Assembly (NCBI GenBank): GCA_020629545.1
Contig: JAHDDC010000014.1
Location: 1-52,897 of the forward strand
Reading direction: 5' to 3'
Origin: Hellea sp.
Lineage (GTDB): Bacteria > Pseudomonadota > Alphaproteobacteria > Caulobacterales > Maricaulaceae
DNA: 52,897 nt
Below, one piece after another: positions 34,287 to 51,696 of this stretch. Position 1 is the stretch's first letter, and every line of letters begins with the position of its first letter. The position numbers and the translations under genes were made by a program. The notes beneath the pieces are model-generated. The model saw nothing but the letters and a program-made list of their open reading frames with translations. It was not told the DNA's origin and did no database searches.

Positions 34287-36728
34287 ATGACAGATCAAGC
34301 ATTCAAAAACCATGCTCAGGTTGTCGTTATTGGCGGCGGACTCATTGGATGTTCTATCCTTTATCATTTGACCAAACTCGGATGGTCGGATGTCGTATTG
34401 CTAGAACGCGATGAATTAACGTCAGGATCAACCTGGCACGCGGCTGCTAATATTCACGGCCTTCACGACAGCAATAACATCTCTAAGCTACAATATTATA
34501 CAATGAAATTGTATAAGGAACTGGAGGCCGAGACTGGTCAGGGCTGTGGTGTTTTTCAGCCGGGTTCCCTTTATTTGGCTCAAACAAAAGACCGTGAACA
34601 TCAGCTTCGTATTCAAGCGGCCAAAGCCCGGTATTTCGGCGTCGAATTCCATGAATTATCTCGCAAGGAAGCGGAAGAGATGAATCCAATCGTAGATTAC
34701 GATGGAATTCGTTGTATCATGTTCGAGCCCGACGGAGGGAATGTTGATCCGTCCGGAGTGACCCAAGCCTACGCGATAGGCGCAAGACAAAACGGAGCAA
34801 AAATCTACCGATTTACTCCTGCTTTGGAAACCAATCCTCGGCCAGACGGGAGTTGGGATGTTGTCACCCCAAAAGGGTCAATACATGCGCAAATTGTCGT
34901 GAATGCGGCTGGTCTATGGGGGCGCGAAGTCGCTGGGCTTGCCGGTTATCAGTTGCCACTCATGACAATGGAACACCAATATTTAGTAACTGAGGACATT
35001 CCTGAAATTGCCGCGCTTGGACGTCGCCTTCCTTCTGTATCGGATCGTGATGGCGAGTATTATATGCGCCAGGAACTCAACGGACTCCTTGTAGGGGCTT
35101 ATGAGAAGGACGGACGCTTTTGGGCAGAAAATGGAACGCCTCTAGATTTTGGCCACGAACTGTTTTCCGATGATCTGGATCGTATAGAACCCAATATTAT
35201 GCGGGCCTGTGAGCGCGTTCCCGCCATGGCAAATGCCGGAATCAAGAAAGTCATTAATGGTCCAATGATTTGGACCCCCGATGCTGCTGCCCTTTACGGG
35301 CCTGTTCCGGAACTTAAAAACTACTTTGTTTGCAATGGCATCATCCCCGGGTTTAGTCAATCAGGCGGCCTCGGGATGATGATGGCCCAATGGATTGTTG
35401 AGGGCGAACCTGAGCTCGATATGTTCCCATGGGACATGGCACGATATGGTATTGATTGGACTCCCAAAACATTTGTTAAAGCCCGGGCACTGGACTGTTA
35501 TTCCAATCGTTTCAAAATTCATTTCCCTTACGAGGAACGTGATGCGGGGCGCCCGGTTCGAACGCGCCCAATCTACGAGAAACAAAAATCTATGGGTGCG
35601 ATCTTCGGGCTTAACGCATCATGGGAACACCCACTCTGGTATGCACAAGACGGTCAAGAGCCTGTAGAAACTTACGGATTTGAACGCCAACAATGGTGGG
35701 ACGGGGTTCGCGCCGAATGCAAGAACCTTCGAGAAGCCGTTGGAATCATTGATGTTTCTAATTTCGCTAAGTATGAAATCAAAGGAACAGGTTCCAAGGC
35801 TTGGCTGAATTCCATTCTTGCTAATACAGTACCCTTCAAAACGGGAAGATCATGTTTGTCGCCCTTATTAGGGGTTCGAGGCGGGATTGCCGGAGATTTC
35901 ACCGTTACGATGGTTGGCGAAGATCATTATTATATGTTTGGCTCCGCAAGTGCTGAACGCTATCACAGCCGCTTCTTTAATTCAGATAACAAACCCGATA
36001 CTGTTGAATTTAATAGCCGAACTCAAGCGTGGTGTGGTTTTAACGTCGCAGGCCCTAGATCTCGTGATCTATTGGCAAAAATTACGGACGCTGACTTGTC
36101 GACAGAAGCTTTCCCATTCATGCGATCACAAAACATCATCATCGCAGGTATCAATGCTTTTGCACTTCGCGTCTCTTTTACTGGGGATCTGGGATGGGAG
36201 CTTTATGTGGATGAACAGGACCAAGCGGCTCTTTTTGATGCCTTGTTAGAAGCCGGCAAGGAGTTTGGCGTGAAACCTGTTGGAAGTCGTTCCCTTCTCT
36301 CTTTGCGCGTTGAAAAAGGTTACGGGTCATGGGGACGGGAATATTCTCCGGAATATTGGCCACAAGAAGTTGACTTTAACCGCCTCGTGAAAATGAAAAA
36401 ATCCGTATTTTCCGGACGCGACGCCTATGAAAAAATTATGGATGAAAAACCGCGCTTGCGACTGGTTCAGTTCTCAGTAGAAACCCCGCACAATGCCGAT
36501 GCCTCGGGCGGCGAAGCTATATTTTTAACAGATGGAACGCCGGTCGGCTATGTTACAACGGGAGCATATAGCCATACGACGGAACAATCTCTCGCGTTGG
36601 GATTTGTAAAAACAGAAATTGTAGGCGATGCGACCGAATTTGACATAGCAATTTTGGGAAAACCGCACCGTGCAAAATTGTTACAGGAACCCCCATTTGA
36701 CCCTAAAGGCCTCAGGCTAAGGGCCTAA
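34287..36728 (+). CDS. Dimethylglycine/sarcosine dehydrogenase-like FAD protein with GcvT domains (copy 1)
   Basis: An 813-residue flavoprotein with the DMGDH layout: FAD-binding DAO domain (residues ~10-370, VVVIGGGLIGCSILYHL), FAO-M linker (~375-430), and GcvT plus GcvT-C folate domains (~435-805). His51 in GSTWHAAAN is at the position of the covalently flavinylated histidine of DMGDH. The folate half includes RVSFTGDLGWELYVD and SLRVEKGYGSWGREYSPEYWP. Expected chemistry is oxidative N-demethylation with transfer of the methylene to THF. It follows folD on the same strand and converges on bhmt. Exact substrate (dimethylglycine, sarcosine or another N-methyl amine) is not decided by sequence. 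Confidence 0.88.
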   Translation: MTDQAFKNHAQVVVIGGGLIGCSILYHLTKLGWSDVVLLERDELTSGSTWHAAANIHGLHDSNNISKLQYYTMKLYKELEAETGQGCGVFQPGSLYLAQTKDREHQLRIQAAKARYFGVEFHELSRKEAEEMNPIVDYDGIRCIMFEPDGGNVDPSGVTQAYAIGARQNGAKIYRFTPALETNPRPDGSWDVVTPKGSIHAQIVVNAAGLWGREVAGLAGYQLPLMTMEHQYLVTEDIPEIAALGRRLPSVSDRDGEYYMRQELNGLLVGAYEKDGRFWAENGTPLDFGHELFSDDLDRIEPNIMRACERVPAMANAGIKKVINGPMIWTPDAAALYGPVPELKNYFVCNGIIPGFSQSGGLGMMMAQWIVEGEPELDMFPWDMARYGIDWTPKTFVKARALDCYSNRFKIHFPYEERDAGRPVRTRPIYEKQKSMGAIFGLNASWEHPLWYAQDGQEPVETYGFERQQWWDGVRAECKNLREAVGIIDVSNFAKYEIKGTGSKAWLNSILANTVPFKTGRSCLSPLLGVRGGIAGDFTVTMVGEDHYYMFGSASAERYHSRFFNSDNKPDTVEFNSRTQAWCGFNVAGPRSRDLLAKITDADLSTEAFPFMRSQNIIIAGINAFALRVSFTGDLGWELYVDEQDQAALFDALLEAGKEFGVKPVGSRSLLSLRVEKGYGSWGREYSPEYWPQEVDFNRLVKMKKSVFSGRDAYEKIMDEKPRLRLVQFSVETPHNADASGGEAIFLTDGTPVGYVTTGAYSHTTEQSLALGFVKTEIVGDATEFDIAILGKPHRAKLLQEPPFDPKGLRLRA

Positions 36729-36737
36729 TAAGTTAAA

Positions 36738-37748
36738 TTATTTGCGCCGGCGACTTCGTCGTTGTCTGGCAGCGGCCTTCTTCTCTTCGCTAGCTGGCGG
36801 AGCTACCAGTGGGCCGATAACATCAATGATTTGTTCTAGGTTTGGCCGTTGACCCGCATTATATGCGTCCATAGACTTTCGCATGGCCGCAATATGTTCA
36901 GGTCGAGTTCCACAGCACCCCCCAATTATCCTAACACCCGCATCGCCAGCAAGCTGAACATAATCTCCCATAAGCTGCGGCGTCCCTGTATAAACCGTTT
37001 CTTTGCCCTGTATGACAGGTATTCCGCAATTGGCCTTGCCGATAATTACGGCGTCAGGGTTTCTCTCGGTCATATCGAGCATTGAAGACATCAAATCCGA
37101 AGCGCCCACACCGCAATTAGCACCATACGCTACGGGAGGCCTTGCCAGACCGTTTGCAATTTCATCCAAACCACATGGCGCGATTCCCATCATGGTTTTA
37201 CCCGCTGTATCGAAACTGGCCGTAAAAACATAAGGCATGCCAAGGTCTATGGCGGCGTTGGCTGCCGCCTCAATTTCTTCGCAGGCCGACATGGTTTCTA
37301 TCCAAATCACATCCGCGCCGCCATCTTTGAGCCCGCGTATTTGCTCAATGAAAAAGGCCTTGCAGCTCTCTGGCGTTAGCGCCCCCATTGGCTCAAACAA
37401 CTCACCTGTTGGTCCAACAGAACCGGCAACAACGACGGGTCGCTCCGCGCGTTCGGCAACCTTTCCTGCAACTTCCGCCCCAGCCTTATTGATGGCATAG
37501 GTTTCGTCAGCCGCGTTATGGAGTTTCAGCCTCGGCGCGTTGGCGCCAAACGTATTGGTCAAAATTATGTCAGACCCCGCTTCGACAAATAATTGATGCA
37601 AAGCATCAGGCTTTTCGGGATGTGAAACGTTCCATAGGTCAGGTGGGAAACCGGGCTCGAGCCCCATATCCATAAAGTTAGTTCCTGTTGCGCCATCAGC
37701 CAGAACCAGCTGCTTCTGTTCTAGTAGCTTTTCTAATGAAATACGCAT
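36738..37748 (-). CDS. bmt: Betaine-homocysteine S-methyltransferase-like protein
   Basis: A 336-residue homocysteine S-methyltransferase (pfam S-methyl_trans). The zinc site is complete: Cys212 in YGANCGVGA and Cys278-Cys279 in GGCCGTRPEH. The start region VLADGATGTNFMDMGL and the VVAGSVGPTGELFEPMG block match alphaproteobacterial betaine-homocysteine methyltransferases, which make methionine and dimethylglycine from glycine betaine. Other methyl donors are possible. The C-terminus is an unusual basic tail (KKAAARQRRSRRRK). ATG 37748 has GAGAG upstream. Its leader contains an AT-rich inverted repeat (37791-37823). Confidence 0.85.
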   Translation of the reverse strand: MRISLEKLLEQKQLVLADGATGTNFMDMGLEPGFPPDLWNVSHPEKPDALHQLFVEAGSDIILTNTFGANAPRLKLHNAADETYAINKAGAEVAGKVAERAERPVVVAGSVGPTGELFEPMGALTPESCKAFFIEQIRGLKDGGADVIWIETMSACEEIEAAANAAIDLGMPYVFTASFDTAGKTMMGIAPCGLDEIANGLARPPVAYGANCGVGASDLMSSMLDMTERNPDAVIIGKANCGIPVIQGKETVYTGTPQLMGDYVQLAGDAGVRIIGGCCGTRPEHIAAMRKSMDAYNAGQRPNLEQIIDVIGPLVAPPASEEKKAAARQRRSRRRK

Positions 37749-37790
37749 ATTGGCTCTCAAGCAAAATTCTTGGTCCACTTACACTATAAA

Positions 37791-37903: not shown

Positions 37904-40342
37904 CTACGTTCTCATCTTACCACCATTAGCATCGTACAGGGCATGTAAAATAAGACGAGCTGAACGCATTTCACCATTAATTTCGATGTCAAACAAATCA
38001 CCGTCCTTGGCCATTTCCACTGGTACATATCCCAAGGCTACACTTTCTTTGACATGGTGGGCATAACCCCCTGATGATACATAGCCGATAGCCTTACCGC
38101 CTTTGAGAATTGCTTCATCCCCGACGACATCTTGATCATCAGCATCAACCACAAAGGATACAAGTTTTTGCCTTGGTCCATTTTCCTTTTCAGCCAAAGC
38201 AGCTGTTTTTCCAATAAAATCGGACTTCCACGAGATGAAATAATCTAGCCCGCTCTCAGCAGCGGTAAAATCTGGTCTGAAATCGGTACCCCAAACTCCC
38301 CAATTCTTTTCAAGCCTCAGTGACATTAACGCACGATTTCCATACCATTTTAGACCTAAGTTCGCTCCAGCTTTCTCTACCGCTTGAGCCAGTTTTTTCT
38401 GAAATTGCGGCTTTACATATATTTCATAACCGTGCTCACCTGAAAAAGAGATCCGGTTTAAAACTGCCGGAACCCCGGCAACAAATGTCAAATGGCAATC
38501 CATGAACTCTATCGCATCAACGTCGCCGCGATAGATTTTCGACAATAATTCTTTGGAATTGGGCCCAGATAGAGCGATACCATGATAATCATCTGAGATG
38601 TTTTTGTACAAAACTCCAGTATTCGGTAGGTATTTTTCAAACCAGCGCCGGTGAGCTTCCTGCATGGTTCCAGAGCCAAAAAGCATGAAATGATCTTTGG
38701 CAAAACGGGCTATCGTCAGATCTCCATAGAGCTTGCCATTCGGTGTCAACATTGGCGTTAAAGCCATACGCCCAATTTTTGGCATTCGCCCAGCGAGAAT
38801 TTTACGCAAGAAGTCTCGGGCCCCTGCCCCTTTGAATTCATGTTTGCCGAAATTTGCAATTTCAATTGCGCCAACAGCTTCCCGAACGGCTTTAACTTCG
38901 CTTGCCACATAATCATGTGCCCTAGATCGTCCAAATGAGGGCTCTTCGTGAGCATCATTTATGTCATCTGCAAACCATAGCGCGTGTTCCAAACCAAAGC
39001 TTTGGTCCATGACCGCGCCTTTTGAAACAAGATCGTCATATATGGCCGTTGTCTTTTGCTGCCGTCCCTTTGGTAAAGTCTCATTAGGGAACGTCATCAC
39101 AAATCGGCGCTCGTAATTCTCAGTCGATTTTATCGTACCCCATTCCGGAGACGCCCAGCTCCCCCAAGAACAATCGCCAAACCGCGCAATATCCATCGCC
39201 CAGACATCTATCGATGGCTCTCCATCCATCATCCACTCTGCCATGCAAAGTCCAACGCCGCCGGCTTGACAAAATCCGGCCATAACACCAACGGCGGCCC
39301 AGTAATTTCGAATCCCCGGCACAGGGCCAATCATTGGATTGCCATCGGGACCAAATGTAAAAGGTCCGTTTATCCAATTTTTAATCCCAGCATCCTGTAA
39401 AGCCGGAATCCGTTCAAATCCGATTTCCAGCCGGTCAGCAATGTTTTCTAATTTTGGCTCGAGCAATTCATGCCCGAAATCCCAAGGCGTTCCGCCAACC
39501 ATCCACGGCGTTGCAACTGGCTCATAGGTCCCCAATAAGAGCCCGTCGCGTTCCTGCCTAAAATAGATATTGCCTTCGTAATCAATGCCGGCTGGCAACC
39601 TGTTATCTCGATCGCGCGCTGCGATCTCCGGAATCGTGTCCGTTATCAGATAGTGATGCTCCATCGGCTGTACAGGAATATGCAAGCCTGACATATGGCC
39701 CAGCTCCCGAGCCCAAAGGCCGGCTGCATTGACAATCATATCGGCATGCACAGTCCCGTTCTTTGTTACAACGTCCCAGGTGCCATCGGGTCGCTGTATT
39801 GTTTCGACAACTGGAGTATGAGTGAAAAAATCAGCGCCATAGTGTTTGGCAGATTTCGCATAAGCATATGTGACGCCCGATGGGTCAACATCTCCATCGA
39901 GAGGGTCCCAAAGAGCCGCAACGTAATGTTTGGGGTCAATCAGAGGATGGCGTTCGGCAGCCTCTTTGACGGAAATAAACTCCTGATCAAGACCCATATA
40001 TCTGGCCTTGGATCGTTCTCTCTTCAGATAGTCATACCAGACATCATTAGATGCTAGATAAAACCCTCCTGTCTTATGTAACCCGACGGAATGCCCCGAA
40101 GTTTTCTCAATCTCGTCATAAAGATTAATCGTATAACCTTGCAGGCGGGATATATTAGGATCGGAAGAAATCGTATGAATTTGACCTGCTGCATGCCAAC
40201 TTGAGCCGGATGTAAGCTCGTCTCGCTCCAGCAGAATGACATCTTTCCAGCCAAACTTAGCCAAATGAAACAGAATTGAACATCCGACCACGCCGCCGCC
40301 AATAATACAAACACGCGTATGTTCAGGGAGCTGTTTGTTCAT
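37904..40342 (-). CDS. Dimethylglycine dehydrogenase-like FAD protein with GcvT domains (copy 2)
   Basis: An 812-residue paralogue of the flavoprotein at 34287-36728 with the same order: DAO domain (VCIIGGGVVGCSILFHL), FAO-M linker, GcvT and GcvT-C. His50 in SGSSWHAAGQ corresponds to the covalent FAD histidine. The folate half has RISFSGEHGYEIYV and SLRLEKNWGVWGTDFRPDF. Its ATG overlaps the stop of the MttB-family gene by one base (TAATG), so the two proteins are probably made together. That suggests that a trimethyl substrate demethylated by the partner is passed on as a dimethyl amine; this is inference. An in-frame start at 40351 is less likely. Confidence 0.88.
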   Translation of the reverse strand: MNKQLPEHTRVCIIGGGVVGCSILFHLAKFGWKDVILLERDELTSGSSWHAAGQIHTISSDPNISRLQGYTINLYDEIEKTSGHSVGLHKTGGFYLASNDVWYDYLKRERSKARYMGLDQEFISVKEAAERHPLIDPKHYVAALWDPLDGDVDPSGVTYAYAKSAKHYGADFFTHTPVVETIQRPDGTWDVVTKNGTVHADMIVNAAGLWARELGHMSGLHIPVQPMEHHYLITDTIPEIAARDRDNRLPAGIDYEGNIYFRQERDGLLLGTYEPVATPWMVGGTPWDFGHELLEPKLENIADRLEIGFERIPALQDAGIKNWINGPFTFGPDGNPMIGPVPGIRNYWAAVGVMAGFCQAGGVGLCMAEWMMDGEPSIDVWAMDIARFGDCSWGSWASPEWGTIKSTENYERRFVMTFPNETLPKGRQQKTTAIYDDLVSKGAVMDQSFGLEHALWFADDINDAHEEPSFGRSRAHDYVASEVKAVREAVGAIEIANFGKHEFKGAGARDFLRKILAGRMPKIGRMALTPMLTPNGKLYGDLTIARFAKDHFMLFGSGTMQEAHRRWFEKYLPNTGVLYKNISDDYHGIALSGPNSKELLSKIYRGDVDAIEFMDCHLTFVAGVPAVLNRISFSGEHGYEIYVKPQFQKKLAQAVEKAGANLGLKWYGNRALMSLRLEKNWGVWGTDFRPDFTAAESGLDYFISWKSDFIGKTAALAEKENGPRQKLVSFVVDADDQDVVGDEAILKGGKAIGYVSSGGYAHHVKESVALGYVPVEMAKDGDLFDIEINGEMRSARLILHALYDANGGKMRT

Positions 40343-41871
40343 TAGTACCACCGCTCTTCAATGTCCATTTTTCGGCGAGCGATAAAATCCAGAAGCGCGC
40401 CATCAATATCGGCGTCCAGTTCGGGCTTCACCGTTTCATAATCCTCTAACAGCTTGTTCCAACGTTCAAAGGCGCGTTGCTCAGTATCCTGAGAGCCATC
40501 CTCTTCCCATTGCTCACAGCTTTTACTGTCGGACATTTCAGCATCATAATAGGCCGTCGAATAGTTCTGCATCGTATGAGCAGACCCCAAGAAATGCCCG
40601 CCTGGCTCTACATCATCATAGGCCGCTTTTCCGAGACTATTGTCATCCATCGGCAGGCCTTCCAGCATTACTTTATACCCCCCGAGGCGGTCTGCATCGA
40701 CAATAAGCTTCTCATACCCAGCGCATAATCCTCCCTCGAGCCAACCCGCAGCATGGACGACAATATTTGCGCCCCCTAGGACGGTTGATAACATTGAGTC
40801 AGCGCTTTCTGCGGCGGATTGGGCGTCTGTTACTTTAGATGCTGTCAATGAACCGCCGCACCGCATAGGCACACCTAAACGACGTGCCAATTGTCCAATC
40901 ACATAATTTGACATAACTGGCTCAGGCGTACCAAAAGTCGGAGCGCCGGATTTCAAACTCATCGAGGAAAGAAAATTTCCTAGAACAAAGGGCGCTCCAG
41001 GCCGGACTAACTGTGAGAATGCGCCGCACATCATAGCTTCCGCAAATGCTTGAGCAATTGAAGCGGCCGTCGTGACCGGGCCCATTGCGCCGCCGAGAAT
41101 AAATGGAGCGACGATAATCCCTTGGTTGGCGCCGCAATAAACCTGAATAGCTTCTGTAACGACACGATCAACAAGCAAAGGAGAATTTGTATTGACATTA
41201 CCCATGATCACACAGTTATTTTCCATGAATTCACTGCCATAAAGAATTCGGGCCATATCAACACTGTCTTGGGCTCGAGACTTCTCGGTAATTGAGCCAA
41301 AGAAAGGCTTATCCGAATATTTCATATGGGCGTAGACGATATCCAAATGCCGATGCGTCACAGGAATATCACAAGGTTCGCAAGGTACATGGCCGCCGTG
41401 ATGCAAGCTCGGTAGCATATAAGTGAGCTTCACCAGCTTCTGCAGATCCTCTATCGTTCCATAGCGCCGACCTTTTTCCAGATCCCGAACAAATGGAGGT
41501 CCGTAAACGGTTGTGAAGACGACATTTTTACCCCCAATCCGTACGGATCGAGCGGGATTACGCGAATGTTGCGTAAACTCTGTGGGTGCGGTTTGGCAAA
41601 GCTCCCGGATCATGCCTTTAGGCGCTCTGACCCGCGTTCCCTTGACATCCGCCCCTGCTTTTTTCCATATTTCAAGAGCGACTGGGTCTTCTCGAAACTC
41701 AAGACCGACTTCTTGGATTATCCAGTCGGCTTGCTCCTCTATTTTTACAAGATTTTCTTCGCCCAGAAATTCATAAAACGGAATTTGACGCGTTATATAA
41801 GCTGGCGCAGCTAGAGCAGAAGCCTTGCTTCGACCACGCGATGATCTGCGCCGAGATGCTCGTTCCGACAT
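40342..41871 (-). CDS. Trimethylamine methyltransferase (MttB) superfamily protein, non-pyrrolysine; glycine betaine methyltransferase-like
   Basis: A 509-residue MttB-superfamily protein. True MttB has an in-frame UAG for pyrrolysine; this frame is uninterrupted, placing it with the non-Pyl group that includes the glycine betaine methyltransferase MtgB. Family blocks include QTAPTEFTQHSRNP, GGHVPCEPCDIP, NTNSPLLVD and APFILGGAMGPVTTAASIAQ. The N-terminus is unusually basic (SERASRRRSSRGRSK). No corrinoid protein gene or corrinoid activase is seen in the window, although characterised MttB/MtgB enzymes need them. GGGGAATG precedes the ATG. It is divergent from the LysR gene. Confidence 0.85.
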   Translation of the reverse strand: MSERASRRRSSRGRSKASALAAPAYITRQIPFYEFLGEENLVKIEEQADWIIQEVGLEFREDPVALEIWKKAGADVKGTRVRAPKGMIRELCQTAPTEFTQHSRNPARSVRIGGKNVVFTTVYGPPFVRDLEKGRRYGTIEDLQKLVKLTYMLPSLHHGGHVPCEPCDIPVTHRHLDIVYAHMKYSDKPFFGSITEKSRAQDSVDMARILYGSEFMENNCVIMGNVNTNSPLLVDRVVTEAIQVYCGANQGIIVAPFILGGAMGPVTTAASIAQAFAEAMMCGAFSQLVRPGAPFVLGNFLSSMSLKSGAPTFGTPEPVMSNYVIGQLARRLGVPMRCGGSLTASKVTDAQSAAESADSMLSTVLGGANIVVHAAGWLEGGLCAGYEKLIVDADRLGGYKVMLEGLPMDDNSLGKAAYDDVEPGGHFLGSAHTMQNYSTAYYDAEMSDSKSCEQWEEDGSQDTEQRAFERWNKLLEDYETVKPELDADIDGALLDFIARRKMDIEERWY

Positions 41872-41958: not shown

Positions 41959-42864
41959 ATGCGTAAACTCATTGAAAGTGTAAACTCACTCAATCATCTG
42001 GTCGCTTTTGAAGCATCCAGTCGATTACTGTCGTTCACTGAGGCGGCGAAGGAACTCAACGTCTCTCAGCCGGCTGTGAGTCAATCGGTTCGCAAATTAG
42101 AGCAGAGCTTAGGCGTAGAGCTATTTCAAAGACATCATCGAAAGATTTCTCTAACCGATGCCGGGGAAAGGCTGTGTTATGGTGTTAAGGATGGATTTTC
42201 ACGCATCCAAGATTCAGTAGAGCAAATTCAACAGACCAATTTAGGCAAACATGTCACGCTTTCTGTTTCTACGGCTTTCGCAAATTATTGGATGGTTCCT
42301 CGCTTGGGGGCATTTCACAAACTCAACCCACACATTGATTTGCGCCTTCAAACGACGGATAAAGATGTCGACTTGATTGGCGAAGGCCTGAGCTTGGGGG
42401 TAAGGCGCGGATATGGAGACTTCCCCGGATATGATCACGCCTTGATCGCACGGGAAATCTTATTCCCGATTGGAAGCCCAACAATTAACCAATCCAGTAA
42501 AGCCAATATCTCTCCGCAAGAGCTGTCCCAATGTGAGCTTATTCACCTGGAGGAACCTTTTCGACCAAGACCCACTTGGAAAGATTGGTTTTCCGCTTTC
42601 GATATTAAGGTTCCGGGCACAGATCGCGGACTCAGACTCAATGATTACGCACTCGTTATTCAAGCCGCGATGGCCGGCGAAGGAATCGCGATTGGTTGGG
42701 AGCACACGGTTTCTAAACTCATAGAACAAGGGCTACTTGTCAGAATTGGTCAGAATGTCTGGGAGACAGGGGCAAATTTTTATCTGATCTGGAGAAACAC
42801 CGGCGATCTTTCAGACGATGCCCGAATCGTCAGGGATTGGATCATTGGTACGGCGAACGCCTAG
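41959..42864 (+). CDS. LysR family transcriptional regulator (GcvA-like)
   Basis: A 301-residue LysR regulator. The winged helix-turn-helix is at residues ~10-70 (NHLVAFEASSRLLSFTEAAKELNVS, SQPAVSQSVRKLE, GVELFQRHHRKISLT), and the co-inducer-binding domain spans ~95-295. The GcvA-like group commonly controls glycine or amine metabolism. It lies between two oppositely directed units, the mttB-dmgdh unit to the left and the tmpAB-like pair to the right, so it is the obvious candidate regulator of both. The ligand may be betaine or the phosphonate; this is a guess. Confidence 0.9.
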   Translation: MRKLIESVNSLNHLVAFEASSRLLSFTEAAKELNVSQPAVSQSVRKLEQSLGVELFQRHHRKISLTDAGERLCYGVKDGFSRIQDSVEQIQQTNLGKHVTLSVSTAFANYWMVPRLGAFHKLNPHIDLRLQTTDKDVDLIGEGLSLGVRRGYGDFPGYDHALIAREILFPIGSPTINQSSKANISPQELSQCELIHLEEPFRPRPTWKDWFSAFDIKVPGTDRGLRLNDYALVIQAAMAGEGIAIGWEHTVSKLIEQGLLVRIGQNVWETGANFYLIWRNTGDLSDDARIVRDWIIGTANA

Positions 42865-42997: not shown

Positions 42998-44131
42998 ATG
43001 ACGATTTCAGCAACCGAAATAGTTCCCGACGCGGAAACCGGAGGATTAAGGCTTGCGGGCAAGCCCATTCACCCTCTTTGGCTTAGAGAGCGGGTCACTG
43101 AACCCGAAAGCTACGATCATCACAATCACCAACGTCTTTATGAACATTCGGAACTGAAAGAAGATTTGGCAATAAAAACGGTGGCTTTAGGCAGCAATAG
43201 CCAAAGCTTAAAAATTGAATTCTCAGACGGGTATAAGGCAGTTTTCGATTTGAACGCCTTAGCCAAAGAGCTCGGCATGACCGATAATCCTGAGTCGATC
43301 CCACTGCCCAAAAGCTGGGACTCCGGTTTAAAGTTCAAACGGTTTAGCTGGAATGATTTAGAAGACCCAGCCGAGATGAAGGCTCTTCTCAAAGCCTATT
43401 TTGAGAATGCATTTTGCATAATGGACGATACACCGATTGACCGAGACAGCTTAAAAGCCCATGCGAAACGCTTTGGATTTCTTCGCGAAACTAACTTTGG
43501 AGAGATTTTTAACGTCGAGACAAAGCCCAATCCGTCTGACCTAGCCTATACAGATGTAGCGCTAGCATCGCATACTGATAATCCTTATCGAGAACCTGTT
43601 CCGGGCATTCAATATCTTCATTGTCTTCGCAATGAAGTAGCAGGCGGTCTTTCAACGCTGGTTGATGGAATGGCCGTCGCTGAAGCCATTGGCGACGAAA
43701 ACCCTGACTGGCTAGATATACTCGAAACTATACCTGTTAGATTTCGCTATGAAGGCCCTTCTGGCGTGTACGAGAGCGTAGGTCCCTTGATCAGCCGGGA
43801 TCACCGCGGATATATCTCCCATATACGCTTTAGCTCTCGTGTCGATTTTGTACCAGCATTAGACCCATCCGTACTAGACCTTTTCTATTCAGCCAGACGC
43901 CGCATGCATAAATTGTCCAATGACCTAGCGTTCCAAATCCAATTTCCTTTCAAACCTGGTACGCTTTTGATGATGAATAATTATCGTTTATTTCATGGAC
44001 GTACTGCTTTCGACGGTGCTTTGGGTTACCGCCACTTACAGGGGTGTTATATTGATCACGACGGACCGCAAGCTTTGTATAGAGCTCTTGCAGTTGGCAG
44101 AACAGAAACCTATCTTCCTCGCGAAACATAA
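42998..44131 (+). CDS. tmpA: Fe(II)/2-oxoglutarate dioxygenase, BBOX-like; probable TmpA (2-(trimethylammonio)ethylphosphonate hydroxylase)
   Basis: A 377-residue protein with the layout of gamma-butyrobetaine hydroxylase: an N-terminal DUF971-like domain (~1-95) and a TauD/TfdA dioxygenase domain. Iron ligands are His192 and Asp194 in SHTDNPY and His333 in YRLFHGRTAF. The 2-oxoglutarate arginine should lie shortly after His333. TmpA enzymes were long annotated as gamma-butyrobetaine hydroxylases; they hydroxylate the phosphonate analogue of choline. The deciding clue is the next gene, an HD-domain oxygenase, nine bases downstream. Carnitine synthesis genes are absent. A true butyrobetaine or trimethyllysine hydroxylase remains possible. 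Confidence 0.7.
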   Translation: MTISATEIVPDAETGGLRLAGKPIHPLWLRERVTEPESYDHHNHQRLYEHSELKEDLAIKTVALGSNSQSLKIEFSDGYKAVFDLNALAKELGMTDNPESIPLPKSWDSGLKFKRFSWNDLEDPAEMKALLKAYFENAFCIMDDTPIDRDSLKAHAKRFGFLRETNFGEIFNVETKPNPSDLAYTDVALASHTDNPYREPVPGIQYLHCLRNEVAGGLSTLVDGMAVAEAIGDENPDWLDILETIPVRFRYEGPSGVYESVGPLISRDHRGYISHIRFSSRVDFVPALDPSVLDLFYSARRRMHKLSNDLAFQIQFPFKPGTLLMMNNYRLFHGRTAFDGALGYRHLQGCYIDHDGPQALYRALAVGRTETYLPRET

Positions 44132-44140
44132 GAGCATGTA

Positions 44141-44716
44141 ATGACTATGGACACAGTATCATTCACCAAAATGTCTGAAGGCACAAAAGAAGACTACGCC
44201 TTTTTAGCGAAACATGAAGCCGAGTTCGTCGCACAATTGCCGGACCGTATCATGGCCGCTTTAGAAGACCTCAGAAATTCACTATCCGGCTACAAAATTG
44301 ACCGCCTAGACCACAGCCTGCAATCCGCAACGCGCGCTGAACGCGACGGTGCCGATGTCGATTGGATTGTTTCGGCGCTAGTACATGATCTTGGCGATGA
44401 TCTTGCCCCGCTAAACCATGACAGCCTGGCCGCGAATATTTTACGCCCCTATGTGCGCGAAGAATGTGCGTGGGTTGTACAGCATCACGGGATTTTTCAA
44501 TACAAATATTATGCTGATAAAGTTGGCCTCGACCCTGATGCTCGAGAAAAATTTAAAGATAGCCCCCACTATGATGCAGCCGTTAAATTTTGCGAACGCT
44601 GGGACCAAACTTCATTCGATCCTGAATATGACACTTATGACCTTGAACATTTCCGACCAATGGTAACGGAGGTTTTCGGTCGTAAAGCTTGGGACCCTGC
44701 TATAACCGGAGCTTAG
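44141..44716 (+). CDS. tmpB: HD-domain mixed-valent diiron oxygenase, probable TmpB
   Basis: A 191-residue HD-domain protein of the PhnZ/TmpB type. Metal-site candidates are His58 in RLDHSLQSA, His82-Asp83 in ALVHDLGDD and the pair His115-His116 in VVQHHGIFQ. A late FCERWDQTSFDPEYD segment resembles the RxWD region of PhnZ-like oxygenases. TmpB cleaves the carbon-phosphorus bond of the 1-hydroxylated phosphonate to give glycine betaine and phosphate. It lies nine bases after the tmpA-like gene and next to betaine-demethylating genes, which fits. HD phosphohydrolases with other substrates look similar, so the function is inferred. ATG 44147 is an alternative start. Confidence 0.7.
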   Translation: MTMDTVSFTKMSEGTKEDYAFLAKHEAEFVAQLPDRIMAALEDLRNSLSGYKIDRLDHSLQSATRAERDGADVDWIVSALVHDLGDDLAPLNHDSLAANILRPYVREECAWVVQHHGIFQYKYYADKVGLDPDAREKFKDSPHYDAAVKFCERWDQTSFDPEYDTYDLEHFRPMVTEVFGRKAWDPAITGA

Positions 44717-44717
44717 T

Positions 44718-45422
44718 TCAGGAAACTGCCTGTTGAGCCATCGTTGCAACCAATAGCAATATGCCATTGTGAGCCGAATGCAACCCGACGCAAGTCAGGA
44801 AACCGAAACGCATACGTGAATACCCAAATACGAATCCAGAAACGGTTTGCGGCAATACTTTCAGGAATGCCAAAAACCCAGCATCTTCGGCCGAAAAGTT
44901 GGATAAATGTATTAGTCCGAAGATTGAAGCCGTAAACCAAAAAACAATCGGGAAAAACCTGCCGATTAAACGATCAAGCTTCTCATGATTGAGTCTCTCG
45001 CGCCAGACCGAAACACAATAAAACCAGATTGCGATCAAGGTTGGAACAACAAGTAAGAAATGAAGTCCATTTGTTTTTTGCATTACAACCATCAAGATGG
45101 TGATGATGGCGACCGGAAGTAAAATAAGAATTCCAAGGCGAAACCCTAACCATGAACGAAAGAGTAATTCTTCGATAAATGGCACTAACATCGCAATTAC
45201 AAAAAAGTTTTCAATTCGGATATATTTCCTGAAACTATCTGTCACTTCCGGGTCTGGAACATTTAAAATTCCATATACGATTGCGCCAAATATACCGGCT
45301 GAAAATGCAAGGAAAAAGTTTAAGCCTATCAGGTTCACAAAAAGCGATATTGAAATAGGATCACGCTTTCGCCTGTACTCAGGCCTAGCCACATAACGTG
45401 CAATGTCGCTCAGCAATCCCAC
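44718..45422 (-). CDS. CPBP-family intramembrane metalloprotease
   Basis: A 234-residue membrane protein with about six to eight hydrophobic segments. It carries the CPBP (CAAX protease and bacteriocin-processing) motifs: Glu84-Glu85-x3-Arg88 in PFIEELLFRSW and, near the C-terminus, a histidine/asparagine motif in GLHSAHNGILL. Bacterial members cleave or protect membrane peptides; the target is unknown. The start is GTG at 45422 with a weak ribosome site. It converges on tmpB with a one-base gap and seems unrelated to betaine metabolism. Confidence 0.85.
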   Translation of the reverse strand: MGLLSDIARYVARPEYRRKRDPISISLFVNLIGLNFFLAFSAGIFGAIVYGILNVPDPEVTDSFRKYIRIENFFVIAMLVPFIEELLFRSWLGFRLGILILLPVAIITILMVVMQKTNGLHFLLVVPTLIAIWFYCVSVWRERLNHEKLDRLIGRFFPIVFWFTASIFGLIHLSNFSAEDAGFLAFLKVLPQTVSGFVFGYSRMRFGFLTCVGLHSAHNGILLLVATMAQQAVS

Positions 45423-47345: not shown

Positions 47346-48596
47346 ATGCGATATTCTGCTTTCAACATTTTTAAACAGGCAATTACAGGCCATAAAGGGT
47401 GGAAACCTGCTTGGCGTAAACCAGATCCTCAACCAGAGTACGACATAATTATCGTTGGCGGCGGCGGGCATGGATTAGCCACGGCATATTATCTGGCCGA
47501 AAAATTTCAACAAAAGCGAGTAGCTGTTTTGGAAAAAGGTTGGATTGGCGGCGGGAATGTGGGTCGAAATACGACAATTATTCGCTCCAATTATATGCTT
47601 CATCAGAATGAGGGTTTTTACGAGTTTTCCCTGAAGTTATGGGAAAAGCAAGAAAGCGACCTAAATTACAATACGATGGTATCCCAGCGCGGTATTCTGA
47701 ACTTAGCACATTCCGACCCCCAGCGCGATGCCTATGCCAGACGCGGAAATGCCATGGTTTTAAATGGCGCAGATGCCAAGCTCATGACACCTGATGAAAT
47801 TCGCGGAATGTGTCCGTTTTTAAACTTTGATAATGCACGCTTTCCAATTCGCGGAGGCCTGTGGCAGAAACGCGGCGGTACTGTACGCCATGACGCTGTA
47901 GCTTGGGGCTATGCAAGGGCAGCCGATATGCGCGGGGTCGACATCATAGAAAACTGTGAAGTCACCGGTTTTAAAATTGAAAATGGCGTTTGCTCCGGAG
48001 TCGAGACTAATCGGGGCTCAATTAGAGCTAAAAAGATTGGTGTCGCGGTTGCCGGCTCATCATCTCGCGTAATGGCAATGGCAGGTATGCGCCTACCTTT
48101 AGAAAGTCATGTTTTGCAGGCATTCGTTTCCGAAGGTCTCAAGCCCCTGATCCCGGGTGTCATAACCTATGGCGCCGGACACTTTTATGTCAGCCAGTCA
48201 GACAAAGGCGGACTGGTTTTTGGCGGGGATATTGATGGCTATAACTCTTACGCTCAGCGCGGCAATCTTCCGGTCGTTGAAGATGTGTGCGAAGGAGGCA
48301 TTTCTCTCATGCCCATGATTGGCAAAGCCCGCCTGCTTCGCATGTGGGGCGGCATTATGGATATGTCGATGGACGGCTCTCCCATCATCGACAAAACCGA
48401 TATCGACGGCCTCTTTTTCAATGGCGGCTGGTGCTATGGCGGTTTTAAAGCAACACCAGCCTCTGGGTATTGTTTTGCCGAACTTATGGCAACCGGCAGC
48501 CCTAGCTCTACGGCAAAACATTTGAGATTAGACCGCTTTTCTCGCGGATTGATGATTGATGAGAAAGGACAAGGCGCTCAGCCTAATTTGCACTAA
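47346..48596 (+). CDS. soxB: Sarcosine oxidase, beta subunit
   Basis: The beta subunit of heterotetrameric sarcosine oxidase holds the FAD that oxidises sarcosine and the covalent FMN. The 416-residue protein has the FAD motif IIVGGGGHGLATAYYLAEK, GGGNVGRNTTIIRSNY, and His182 in GGTVRHDAVAWGYAR, matching the histidine that carries FMN. The C-terminal NGGWCYGGFKATPASG block is typical. It is the first gene of soxBDAG, and its stop overlaps the soxD start (TAATG). No strong ribosome site is seen before the ATG at 47346. Confidence 0.95.
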   Translation: MRYSAFNIFKQAITGHKGWKPAWRKPDPQPEYDIIIVGGGGHGLATAYYLAEKFQQKRVAVLEKGWIGGGNVGRNTTIIRSNYMLHQNEGFYEFSLKLWEKQESDLNYNTMVSQRGILNLAHSDPQRDAYARRGNAMVLNGADAKLMTPDEIRGMCPFLNFDNARFPIRGGLWQKRGGTVRHDAVAWGYARAADMRGVDIIENCEVTGFKIENGVCSGVETNRGSIRAKKIGVAVAGSSSRVMAMAGMRLPLESHVLQAFVSEGLKPLIPGVITYGAGHFYVSQSDKGGLVFGGDIDGYNSYAQRGNLPVVEDVCEGGISLMPMIGKARLLRMWGGIMDMSMDGSPIIDKTDIDGLFFNGGWCYGGFKATPASGYCFAELMATGSPSSTAKHLRLDRFSRGLMIDEKGQGAQPNLH

Positions 48597-48871
48597 TGAT
48601 TATCAATCACCCACTCCTTGGCCCGCGTGACGCCGCAGAATTCGTCTATCTCGGCGATGCCAGCTTGATGAACCGCCCAAATCCAAAATCAGAGACGGCA
48701 TCAGACGACTTTTATGAGTATATGTATCTGCGCGAAAATATAGCCGGACAACACCGTGAACTATGGTTCCATGAACAAGGCGACCGATCATGGCTCATCG
48801 TTACGCGCAACACGCTAACCCACGAAATTCTGGGTGTTGAACTAGCCCGCAAAATGGCGGATCGACCATGA
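48596..48871 (+). CDS. soxD: Sarcosine oxidase, delta subunit, with altered zinc site
   Basis: A 91-residue SoxD. The canonical subunit binds zinc through a CPxCG motif near the N-terminus and an H-x3-C motif further on. Here the N-terminal motif reads HPLLGPRDAAEF (both cysteines lost), and the second reads WFHEQGDRSW (histidine kept, cysteine replaced by aspartate). The remaining pattern (EFVYLGDAS, YMYLRENIAGQHRELW, VTRNTLTHEI) is clearly SoxD. The subunit probably keeps a structural role without zinc. Overlaps soxB by one base and soxA by four bases. Confidence 0.9.
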   Translation: MIINHPLLGPRDAAEFVYLGDASLMNRPNPKSETASDDFYEYMYLRENIAGQHRELWFHEQGDRSWLIVTRNTLTHEILGVELARKMADRP

Positions 48872-51696
48872 GCTGGGTTGATAAAAACATATCCTTAAAC
48901 TTCAGTTTTGATGGTAAGTCACTAACAGGTTTTGAAGGCGATACCCTAGCCTCAGCCTTGCTCAGAAATGGAGTTCGCCTTGTCGGTCGATCTTTTAAAT
49001 ATCACAGGCCGCGGGGTATCATGGGCGCTGGAAGTGAAGAGCCCAACGCATTGGTCGAGATTCATGGATGCGGAGTAGCAGAACCCAATCGCCGGGCTAC
49101 GATGATCAAATTATTCGACGGCTTAATAGTCAAAAGCCAAAACCGAACACCTAGCCTTGGACTTGATGTATTCGCGATTAATGACGTCCTCTCTCCCTTT
49201 TTATCGGCTGGTTTCTATTATAAAACGTTTATGTGGCCACGAGCTTTCTGGGAAAAGCTTTACGAGCCTGCTATAAGGCGCGCTGCAGGTCTGGGGAGAA
49301 TTATTCAGAAGCCTGATCCGGATCGGTACGACAAGGGATTTCTACATTGCGACTTACTGGTGATTGGGGGTGGCCCTGCTGGACTAATGTCTGCCCTTAT
49401 AGCCGGAAGAGCCGGCTCAAAAGTGATCATTGCGGACGAAGACTTTCAGATGGGCGGACGCTTACTATCCGATCCGCAGGATATTAACGGTCAGGCAGCG
49501 TCAGAGTGGATTAAGCAAACCCAAGAAGAACTCTCTTCGCTACCCAATGTGCGTATATTGCCGCGAACAACCGTATTTGGAAACTACGATCATGGGATTT
49601 TTGGCGCTCTCGAAACAAAAACTGACGCTATCGGATCTGCTGGCGCACGTCAGATATTATGGCGAATCTACAGCAAAAACAGCATTCTGGCCGCTGGAGC
49701 GACGGAACGCCCTATCGCATTTGCCAATAATGATCGCCCGGGAATCATGCTCGCGAGCGCGCTGCGGACATATCAATATCGTTTTGGGATTGATTTTGAA
49801 AGCTTGGCAATTTTTACGAATAATAACAGCACTGAACTCAACCTCGCAGATCAAATTATTGACAGTCGACAAGGCGATTGGATCACAGATACGACTGGAC
49901 GCAAAGGTCTTTCTAGCATCTCGCTTGCTTCGGGGAAAAAGCTAAAACCCAGATGGCTCGGCATGAGCGGCGGCTGGAACCCAAATGTGCATCTGACATG
50001 TCATAAACGAGGTCGTCCAAAATGGAATCATGATTTGGCCTGCTTTGTCCCTGATAGCAAAACCTTACCGTCGAATATGCAGGTAATAGGTGCTGCAAAT
50101 GGCACATTCAATACTCAAGGGGCATTCAATGATGCGCGAAACGCCTGTGTCAACTTAGGTTATGAGAGCAAAAACCTGCCAACAGCTTCTGCCGAAACTT
50201 ACAAAATCTCAGCCTTTTGGCATGTAAAAGGACGTAAGCGCGCCTGGGTGGATTTTCAAAACGATGTAACATCCAAGGACATCACCCTCGCCCACCAAGA
50301 AGGTTTCAGTTCAGTCGAACATGCCAAAAGATACACCACACTCGGCATGGCAACCGATCAAGGCCGCACTTCAAACGTAGTTGGCCTCGCCATCCTCGCC
50401 GACGCCCAAAACAAATCTATACCAGATACAGGCACAACAATTTTCAGGCCGCCTTATAATCCGGTCCCGATCGGGGCATTTGCTGGCCCTCATAAGGAGC
50501 AGCATTTTAAGCCGACCCGAAAAACACCTAGTCATAAATATGTATCAGAATTGGGCGCAACCTTTGTTGAGTCAGGGTATTGGAAGCGTACACAGTGGAT
50601 TGCCAAAAATGGCGAACAAGGCTGGCGTGACAGTGTTGATCGCGAAGTTCTGACAACCCGCAATTCCGTCGGCATTTGTGATGTCTCAACACTCGGAAAA
50701 ATCGACATACAGGGCCAAGACGCGGGAAAGTTTTTAAACAAAGTTTACGTCAACACATTCTCGACCCTTAAGCCTGGAAAATGCCGGTATGGCCTGATGC
50801 TGCGAGAAGACGGCATAGCCATGGATGACGGAACATCCGCTCGGTTATCCGACACGCATTATGTAATGACGACAACAACAGCTAATGCAGTTCAGGTTTT
50901 CAGGCATCTTGAATTCGTTCGCCAATGTGTGTTTCCAAATATGGATGTCCACCTAATATCGACAACTGAACAATGGGCACAATACTCTGTCGCTGGACCT
51001 AACGCCCGCAAGCTTTTGGAAAAAATTGTTGATCCAGAATTTGACATTTCAAATGAAGCCCTTCCTTACATGGGATGCAGTAAAATTACTGTTTGCGGCG
51101 GGACACGAGCTCGGATATTCCGGCTCTCCTTTTCGGGTGAACTGGCATATGAAATCGCAGTTCCGACCCGCTATGGCGATGCTCTCATTCGGTCCCTGAT
51201 GGAAGCAGGCAAGGAATTTGGTGCTTGTATTTATGGCACAGAAGCGCTTGGCGTCATGCGAATTGAGAAGGGCCACGCCGCCGGAAATGAACTAAACGGA
51301 ACAACGACAGCCTTACATTTGGGGCTCGGCGGTTTCGTTTCCAAAAAGAAAGATTGCATTGGGAAGGTATTGTCAGGACGTGAAGGCCTGGTGGCTGAGG
51401 ATAGCCTAAGGCTTGTTGGGTTTGTGGCTGTGGATCCTAATGATCAAATCACAAATGGGGCTCATTTCATCAATCTAGGGGACCCTAAGGATGCGGAACA
51501 CGATCAGGGCCATATGAGCTCCGTAGCATACTCACCGGAACTGAAGCGATATGTCGGTTTGGGTTTCATTAAAAACGGAGCCAATCGCAAGGGCGAAGAG
51601 GTTTTGGCCGTTGATTTCGTTCGGGATAACCACATCAAAGTTAAAATCGTTAGTCCTCATTTTGTGGACCCAGACGGGGAGCGCCTCCGTGCCTGA
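48868..51696 (+). CDS. soxA: Sarcosine oxidase, alpha subunit
   Basis: A 942-residue alpha subunit that binds NAD and, with its C-terminal GcvT domain, tetrahydrofolate, allowing capture of formaldehyde as 5,10-methylene-THF. The N-terminal ~100 residues are the ferredoxin-like domain (SLTGFEGDTLASALLRNG, FKYHRPRGIMGAG). A dinucleotide domain follows (LLVIGGGPAGLMSALIAGRAG near residue 165, ATERPIAFANNDRPG). GcvT and GcvT-C domains fill ~570-942 (RIFRLSFSGELAYEIAVP, MRIEKGHAAGNELNGTTT). It starts inside the soxD stop (ATGA) and overlaps soxG by eight bases. Confidence 0.95.
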   Translation: MSWVDKNISLNFSFDGKSLTGFEGDTLASALLRNGVRLVGRSFKYHRPRGIMGAGSEEPNALVEIHGCGVAEPNRRATMIKLFDGLIVKSQNRTPSLGLDVFAINDVLSPFLSAGFYYKTFMWPRAFWEKLYEPAIRRAAGLGRIIQKPDPDRYDKGFLHCDLLVIGGGPAGLMSALIAGRAGSKVIIADEDFQMGGRLLSDPQDINGQAASEWIKQTQEELSSLPNVRILPRTTVFGNYDHGIFGALETKTDAIGSAGARQILWRIYSKNSILAAGATERPIAFANNDRPGIMLASALRTYQYRFGIDFESLAIFTNNNSTELNLADQIIDSRQGDWITDTTGRKGLSSISLASGKKLKPRWLGMSGGWNPNVHLTCHKRGRPKWNHDLACFVPDSKTLPSNMQVIGAANGTFNTQGAFNDARNACVNLGYESKNLPTASAETYKISAFWHVKGRKRAWVDFQNDVTSKDITLAHQEGFSSVEHAKRYTTLGMATDQGRTSNVVGLAILADAQNKSIPDTGTTIFRPPYNPVPIGAFAGPHKEQHFKPTRKTPSHKYVSELGATFVESGYWKRTQWIAKNGEQGWRDSVDREVLTTRNSVGICDVSTLGKIDIQGQDAGKFLNKVYVNTFSTLKPGKCRYGLMLREDGIAMDDGTSARLSDTHYVMTTTTANAVQVFRHLEFVRQCVFPNMDVHLISTTEQWAQYSVAGPNARKLLEKIVDPEFDISNEALPYMGCSKITVCGGTRARIFRLSFSGELAYEIAVPTRYGDALIRSLMEAGKEFGACIYGTEALGVMRIEKGHAAGNELNGTTTALHLGLGGFVSKKKDCIGKVLSGREGLVAEDSLRLVGFVAVDPNDQITNGAHFINLGDPKDAEHDQGHMSSVAYSPELKRYVGLGFIKNGANRKGEEVLAVDFVRDNHIKVKIVSPHFVDPDGERLRA

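Follow-up and report, generated by a model that had tools for sequence, protein, structure and literature searches.

Excerpts of a 2020 review count three characterised HD-domain oxygenases, MIOX, PhnZ and TmpB (PMC8177086), to which excerpts of a 2023 review add further phosphonate versions (PMC10574752). Among the closest described systems to the locus treated here is TmpA/TmpB, which releases glycine betaine and phosphate from 2-(trimethylammonio)ethylphosphonate, and an initial annotation had read just such a pair, with this substrate, in a window of 52,897 nt (the whole stretch of DNA analysed) from Hellea sp. The two genes stand as that annotation described them, 9 nt apart on the + strand: A (42998–44131) encodes a 377-aa Fe(II)/2-oxoglutarate (Fe/2OG) oxygenase of the TmpA/BBOX superfamily, assigned by family profile searches, alignment and tree, and B (44141–44716) a 191-aa HD-domain protein with the HD-oxygenase fold, assigned by profiles, an AlphaFold2 (AF2) model, Foldseek, alignment and tree. 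The earlier reading is partly supported, its TmpA/TmpB identification being half right. Our tentatively preferred reading, to which we give slightly less than an even chance, is that A and B form a two-step hydroxylate-then-cleave module acting on a non-phosphonate quaternary-ammonium substrate, perhaps a carnitine-like one, and releasing glycine betaine. Anion-end residues have changed in both enzymes, and the gene contexts involve carnitine, choline and betaine; both observations favour a quaternary-ammonium carbon compound over a phosphonate.

By sequence, B matches entries of the Protein Data Bank (PDB) weakly, PhnZ at 6.7e-06 and TmpB at 0.0012, and it falls below the curated cut-offs of the TmpB model NF049941 (33 bits, cut-off 300) and the Phn-HD/PhnZ model TIGR03276 (41.4 bits, cut-off 214.6), and below the Pfam gathering cut-off of the MIOX family PF05153 (18 bits, cut-off 25). 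In the AF2 model of B (mean predicted local distance difference test score, pLDDT, 94.9) the fold is that of an HD oxygenase: Foldseek ranks 1–10 are all PhnZ or TmpB, with template modelling (TM) scores of 0.60–0.71 and E values of 1e-05 or better (1.8e-07 for PhnZ, 6.8e-06 for TmpB). The metal ligands H58, H82, D83, H93, H116 and D155 form the six-ligand H..HD..H..H..D motif of HD oxygenases, kept in 75 of 75 B sequences, the window's included. Membership of B in the MIOX family was considered because of the missing YxxE loop (below) and the weak Pfam matches (at E up to 1, PF05153 matches 24 of 26 B-type sequences, the best at 4.7e-06) and was rejected on score and fold, MIOX reaching only Foldseek rank 19 (E 0.13, TM on the query 0.52 vs. 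0.67 for PhnZ). A different proposal is that B is no oxygenase at all but hydrolyses, with the help of a metal, a product of A or of neighbouring genes, as an esterase or phosphohydrolase would; the majority of characterised HD proteins are hydrolases, according to the 2020 review excerpts (PMC8177086), and B does lack the YxxE loop of PhnZ and TmpB. We regard this as quite unlikely, given that the ten best structural matches of B are PhnZ and TmpB, that MIOX, itself an HD oxygenase, is described in the same excerpts as also lacking YxxE (PMC8177086), and that B adjoins members of two different Fe/2OG oxygenase families, as would suit a hydroxylated substrate.

Around this shared metal site the pocket of B is not that of TmpB or PhnZ, in which, as the excerpted review puts it, the Tyr of the YxxE loop binds Fe2 and the Glu contacts the substrate amino group (PMC8177086). 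The loop is absent from the window's B, which has Leu48 and Tyr51 in place of the Tyr and Glu, and the replacement of Glu by Tyr51 extends to 75 of 75 B sequences, the Glu being present in 22 of 23 TmpB/PhnZ-type sequences. Gln (Gln120 in the window) takes the place of a Lys found in 23/23 TmpB/PhnZ-type sequences throughout the B set (75/75), and an Arg likewise found in 23/23 is lacking from 69 of 75, being Glu in 62 (Glu152 in the window) and still Arg in 6. The residue after the HD motif is His in 21 of the 23 and Asp in all 75. We take the conserved Lys and Arg to be K108 and R158 of PhnZ, presumably with a phosphonate-related role. From the B set we left out L065, a duplicate of L186, two of the 15 loci L103–L117, which had no stop-free HD reading, and four Chlorobi loci at 38% identity (L082–L085).

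The same separation appears in the B tree (a quick search on 119 B-type sequences and 192 columns), where all 23 TmpB/PhnZ-type sequences are split from the 96 of B's wider family by a very long branch with a Shimodaira–Hasegawa-like approximate likelihood ratio (SH-aLRT) support of 100. The description of B as a PhnZ-like HD oxygenase holds for the fold and the six metal ligands, and fails for the TmpB/PhnZ clade, the YxxE loop, the Lys and the Arg. All B sequences linked to A, to PhyH-family oxygenases or to carnitine genes fall in one 66-member subclade (support 99); on the B tree the A-linked members need at least five changes and the four PhyH-linked members four, as if partners had been exchanged. 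The nearest B genes, 82–87% identical, are in Hellea and Caulobacterales records; others are found across Alphaproteobacteria, including a Pelagibacteraceae record (L081), with single gammaproteobacterial and actinobacterial records. The wider HD family (L031–L042, L044–L048, L089–L092; about 38–50% identical to B) is common in relatives. In the window genome, profile searches gave no TmpB match at E 1e-20, and the Phn-HD search returned only B and one paralog, both far below cut-off. The genome's second, diverged HD paralog (G000:C4:29639-30169, corresponding to L031 7628-8221) is 39% identical to B and has another gene context; in the B tree it sits on a long branch, and its position there is uncertain.

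Enzyme A is the BBOX-like dioxygenase that the initial annotation saw in it: it belongs with TauD, TmpA and BBOX, its metal triad (His192, Asp194 and His333) is invariant in an 18-sequence alignment of relatives, and its best PDB match is TmpA (E 2.3e-59), with human BBOX next (1.7e-27). It misses, nonetheless, the curated cut-offs of all three candidate families, scoring 316 bits against the TmpA model NF049936 (cut-off 400), 234 against the BBOX model TIGR02409 (414.75) and 170.6 against the trimethyllysine hydroxylase (TMLH) model TIGR02410 (268.3). In a maximum-likelihood tree of 52 A-type sequences, two duplicates having been dropped, the 20 B-paired sequences make up one clade (support 100/100) that joins a group of TmpA and eight other sequences; the joint node has support 100/94, while that group's own node is weak (85/46). 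Among the groups compared, the pair-linked clade stands beside the TmpA-containing group rather than inside the TmpA clade, and neither TMLH nor the remaining BBOX-like sequences fall with it.

The pocket of A can be read against that of BBOX, in which, according to the portion of the source available, the substrate carboxylate touches Asn191 and Asn292 and the ammonium group sits in a cage of Tyr177, Tyr194, Tyr205 and Trp181 (PMC4497603); an extract of a second source likewise puts Asn292 at the carboxylate (PMC12067446), and one on TMLH puts Asp231 at the Asn191 position, close to the alpha-ammonium (PMC7764450). Three of the four cage positions are aromatic in A (Phe167, Phe171 and Tyr184 at 177, 181 and 194), and the Tyr205 position is Asn195, as in TmpA. 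At the other end, alignment places Asp181 and Ser279 at the two Asn positions, and this holds for pair-linked A sequences in general (Asp in 27/27, Ser in 26/27, the exception being L205 with Asn) and for A-like genes not adjoining B (Asp/Ser in 9/9); TmpA sequences adjoining a true TmpB have Asn/Asn (10/10), and TMLH sequences Asp/Asn (5/5). Judged from these residues, A appears still shaped to receive a quaternary ammonium group, with an altered site for the anionic end held by BBOX, a site that presumably serves the same role in TmpA.

It could be argued that A is simply a carnitine-synthesis enzyme, a gamma-butyrobetaine or trimethyllysine hydroxylase, with B an accessory protein of carnitine metabolism. 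Both family models do match A (234 and 171 bits), Asp181 equals the Asp of all five TMLH sequences, and some loci with carnitine 3-dehydrogenase (CDH) and BKACE genes contain A-like and B genes. This is unlikely in our estimation: both cut-offs are missed, the tree keeps the A clade apart from TMLH and the remaining BBOX-like sequences, Ser279 stands where the five TMLH sequences have Asn, and the window genome has a separate trimethyllysine dioxygenase homolog, above cut-off, on contig C6 (G000:C6:41350-42387; L147, L153; 284.8 bits, cut-off 268.3).

The initial annotation's own reading, a TmpA/TmpB pair, if a divergent one, fares worse, and we hold it to be improbable. In its favour, the A clade joins the TmpA group and TmpA is the best curated family of A, B has the PhnZ/TmpB fold, the hydroxylase-HD gene order is the same, and the neighbours are betaine genes. 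Against it, both curated cut-offs are missed, by B widely, the TmpA Asn/Asn pair is replaced in A, the YxxE loop, Lys and Arg are lost from B as counted above, and relatives of the pair occur in carnitine and choline operons. Phylogeny, offered with that annotation as its check, divides in the same manner: A does not cluster with true carnitine-synthesis enzymes and joins the TmpA group, but B falls outside TmpB/PhnZ. The phosphonate substrate is not supported, with pocket residues changed in both enzymes and B outside the TmpB/PhnZ clade.

Gene contexts were read in two sets of loci. The first, 31 loci from titled records with a B relative of at least 51% identity, is biased to close kin of the window; here A lies directly upstream of B in 17 loci, and a PhyH-family Fe/2OG oxygenase replaces A beside B in two (L065, L075). 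The gene order BKACE-B-CDH occurs in L064, where the dehydrogenase is above cut-off (766 bits, cut-off 592), and in L072, whose dehydrogenase is 58% identical to that of L064 and whose cluster also encodes, further on, an acyl-CoA dehydrogenase, a CoA ligase and a hydratase (best model crotonobetainyl-CoA hydratase, 315 of 500 bits). In L067, A-B is accompanied by BKACE and CDH 6.7 kb off, and in L071 B is followed by an MttB-family gene (355 of 525 bits) and then, by eye, a DAO-like gene. Two plasmid loci have choline genes, L087 in the order A-B-choline substrate-binding protein-choline dehydrogenase-aldehyde dehydrogenase and L088 with B, choline dehydrogenase, choline substrate-binding protein and aldehyde dehydrogenase. 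On a Phaeobacter plasmid (L086 12001-14480), B carries an inositol oxygenase family annotation; behind it come a fatty-acid-hydroxylase-family protein and a gene labelled 3-methyl-2-oxobutanoate hydroxymethyltransferase. L109 238-2034 holds a single 599-aa frame matching A (37%) and B (31%), a hydroxylase-HD fusion that recalls fungal PhoF. Two kinds of neighbour were set aside as not informative: enolase-superfamily genes (L043, L071, L228, L233), sugar-acid dehydratase-like by curated models and all below cut-off, and, in L199, a Rieske gene close to B (117 of 670 bits on the GbcA model).

The second set came from 385 genomes drawn evenly across the class, 40 of whose 44 best-scoring B places were taken, some of them cut by contig ends; the four not taken were those of G000, G046, G252 and G067. 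A adjoins B in seven of the 40, a PhyH oxygenase in three and a divergent BBOX-like gene in one, so that B has more than one kind of Fe/2OG partner. Because A adjoins B in 17 of 31 titled-record and 7 of 40 class-sample loci, the pairing exceeds chance. BKACE-CDH follows B in one (L216, the dehydrogenase below cut-off), and sarcosine oxidase (Sox) genes lie near B in three; carnitine and betaine contexts are found in a minority of loci. With stricter thresholds, at least one gene of our panel is present in 15 of the 40 B loci, compared with none of the 21 taken from the wider HD family (17 from genomes, four from plasmids).

Across the 385 genomes we counted the A clade in 17 and B in 35, with both in 13 (Fisher P = 5e-12; relatedness was left uncorrected, and the A profile came from B-paired sequences); the A threshold lies where scores drop clearly from 409 to 340 bits, and the B threshold, near 267 bits, was set by eye. 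By coordinates, A adjoins B for nine of the 17 A-clade genes, and an MttB-like gene is present in two of the eight unlinked loci. In L234 a BKACE-CDH-thioesterase-GbdR-like cluster, its dehydrogenase (368 of 414 bits) and regulator (362 of 480) both below cut-off, lies divergent to an A-like gene that is more distantly related (340 bits). In L193 and L210 the neighbours of B look the same by eye (compare the Pelagibacteraceae locus L081) and an A-clade gene lies elsewhere in both genomes, which are putative SAR11 genomes; an Arctic SAR11 genome island is described, in an excerpt, as having two BBOX-annotated genes along with CDH, BKACE and choline dehydrogenase (PMC12421898). Three genomes of about 1.4 Mb have a gene resembling dimethylsulfoniopropionate demethylase near A, above cut-off in L196 (483 of 410 bits) and similar by eye only in L198 and L233.

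The mechanism we tentatively favour, as the simplest account, carries the PhnY/PhnZ scheme over to another substrate. A would hydroxylate a carbon close to the trimethylammonium end of a quaternary-ammonium substrate, and B, as an HD-type diiron oxygenase, would use O2 in a four-electron reaction to cut the bond between the hydroxylated carbon and its neighbour, here a C-C bond, leaving the hydroxylated carbon as a carboxylate. MIOX cleaves C-C without a YxxE loop, so HD oxygenases can do so. Were hydroxylation beta to the nitrogen, as in BBOX and TmpA, the product would be glycine betaine, which is the likely product; BHMT, MttB, DMGDH-like and Sox enzymes encoded nearby could then demethylate it. 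The likeliest substrates would resemble carnitine: B would take carnitine itself or a beta-hydroxy analogue, and A the corresponding deoxy precursor. Carnitine fits some of the B contexts best. A broader proposition, possible though in our view doubtful, is that B typifies a large, as yet unassigned class of HD-type diiron oxygenases that cut C-C in carnitine or a close analogue, these being beta-hydroxylated quaternary-ammonium compounds, and release glycine betaine, their substrate being made by interchangeable hydroxylases (A-type TauD, PhyH) or supplied as ready-made carnitine. If true, glycine betaine could be formed from carnitine-like compounds by an O2-dependent route, in addition to the dehydrogenase/BKACE one already known. 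Titles and abstract openings among the matches listed in the open-licence literature named no HD oxygenase that uses carnitine, or any other quaternary-ammonium carbon compound, as substrate. The B group, with the same metal site and another pocket, and in part linked to two Fe/2OG families and to carnitine and choline genes, is an assayable candidate for a new reaction in methylated-onium turnover, and such HD genes should not be counted as tmpB or phnZ phosphonate genes in surveys.

Several observations weigh against the hydroxylate-then-cleave module on a carnitine-like substrate. HD hydrolases carry HD metal sites too, so B is a putative oxygenase, and the papers listed by the literature searches gave no tested activity of any A- or B-type member. 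The loss of both carboxylate-holding Asn residues of BBOX, as judged from the alignment, argues against gamma-butyrobetaine itself as the substrate of A, and Asp at position 181 recalls trimethyllysine hydroxylase. In L064 and L072, CDH and BKACE already lead from carnitine to glycine betaine, which would make B redundant there or give it another task. Neighbours were uninformative, with no panel gene, at 25 of the 40 sampled B loci, and the panel comparison is not a blind test, since two of the 15 (L186 and L203) are self-hits of panel queries, L186 is the same locus as L065 and the panel was chosen from A/B neighbourhoods. Four of the 17 A-clade genomes, uncorrected for relatedness, have no B above the by-eye threshold; the eight A-clade loci not beside B have neither CDH nor BKACE within the stretch read; and nine sequences counted as B relatives, three Sox-linked loci among them, fall outside the 66-member subclade. 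CDH (fused model), considered as a general companion of the pair, is above cut-off in only six of 29 genomes with A or B, the window genome G000 (C135) included, yet matches at E 0.001 or better occur in 28 of the 29, several of them scoring 300–580 bits. PhnD, finally, is absent from all ten pair carriers among 41 relatives and above cut-off in 15 of the 31 others, but the control failed, with PhnD above cut-off in only 4 of 10 true-TmpB genomes and, among 14 genomes carrying A and B together, in 4; we therefore do not count it as a test of phosphonate use.

The betaine-demethylating neighbours noticed at the outset are indeed there, three of them above curated cut-offs. On the – strand lie a betaine-homocysteine S-methyltransferase (BHMT; 36738–37778; NF005718, 475 bits, cut-off 338), an FAD/tetrahydrofolate dehydrogenase-demethylase-like protein with DAO and GCV_T domain matches (37904–40351) and an MttB-superfamily methyltransferase (40342–41871; PF06253, 721 bits); on the + strand lie a second dehydrogenase-demethylase-like protein with DAO and GCV_T matches (34287–36728) and, downstream of B, the sarcosine oxidase beta subunit SoxB (47346–48596; TIGR01373, above cut-off) and alpha subunit SoxA (48868–51696; TIGR01372, above cut-off). 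Directly upstream of A is a + strand LysR-family regulator (41959–42864), for which the best curated models are GcvA and a choline-sulfate regulator, both missing their cut-offs; homologs 60–63% identical lie upstream of A-B in L053 and L056, and others, 30–35% identical, are divergent from A-B in L197, L209 and L213. An Rce1-like CAAX protease homolog (44718–45422) is convergent with B, its gene end abutting the B stop codon. Elsewhere the window genome holds a separate CDH-BKACE locus (G000:C135:24000-39000, L235), so that A-B is not its sole possible carnitine-linked route.

Set beside the known systems, the locus is close in layout to TmpA/TmpB (Leisingera caerulea; PDB 6npb, 6npa), with which it shares the order of Fe/2OG hydroxylase and then HD gene, the nearness of A to the TmpA group, and the fold and six ligands of B; it differs in the missed cut-offs, in the absence from B of YxxE, Lys and Arg and, by alignment, of two insertions present in TmpB, and in the Asp/Ser of A for Asn/Asn. 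PhnY/PhnZ and the fused fungal PhoF have the hydroxylate-then-cleave logic, as set out in excerpts of the 2023 review (PMC10574752), and PhnZ has the HD fold, but B scores only 41 of 214.6 bits on the Phn-HD model and lies outside that clade. MIOX resembles B as an HD oxygenase that cleaves C-C and has no YxxE, by the 2020 review excerpts (PMC8177086), and is unlike it in that the window's B is below the Pfam cut-off (18 of 25 bits) and finds MIOX only at Foldseek rank 19. BBOX and TMLH share with A the superfamily, the metal triad and the aromatic cage positions, and TMLH the Asp at 181, whereas A misses both of their cut-offs, belongs to a separate clade and has lost the BBOX Asn pair.

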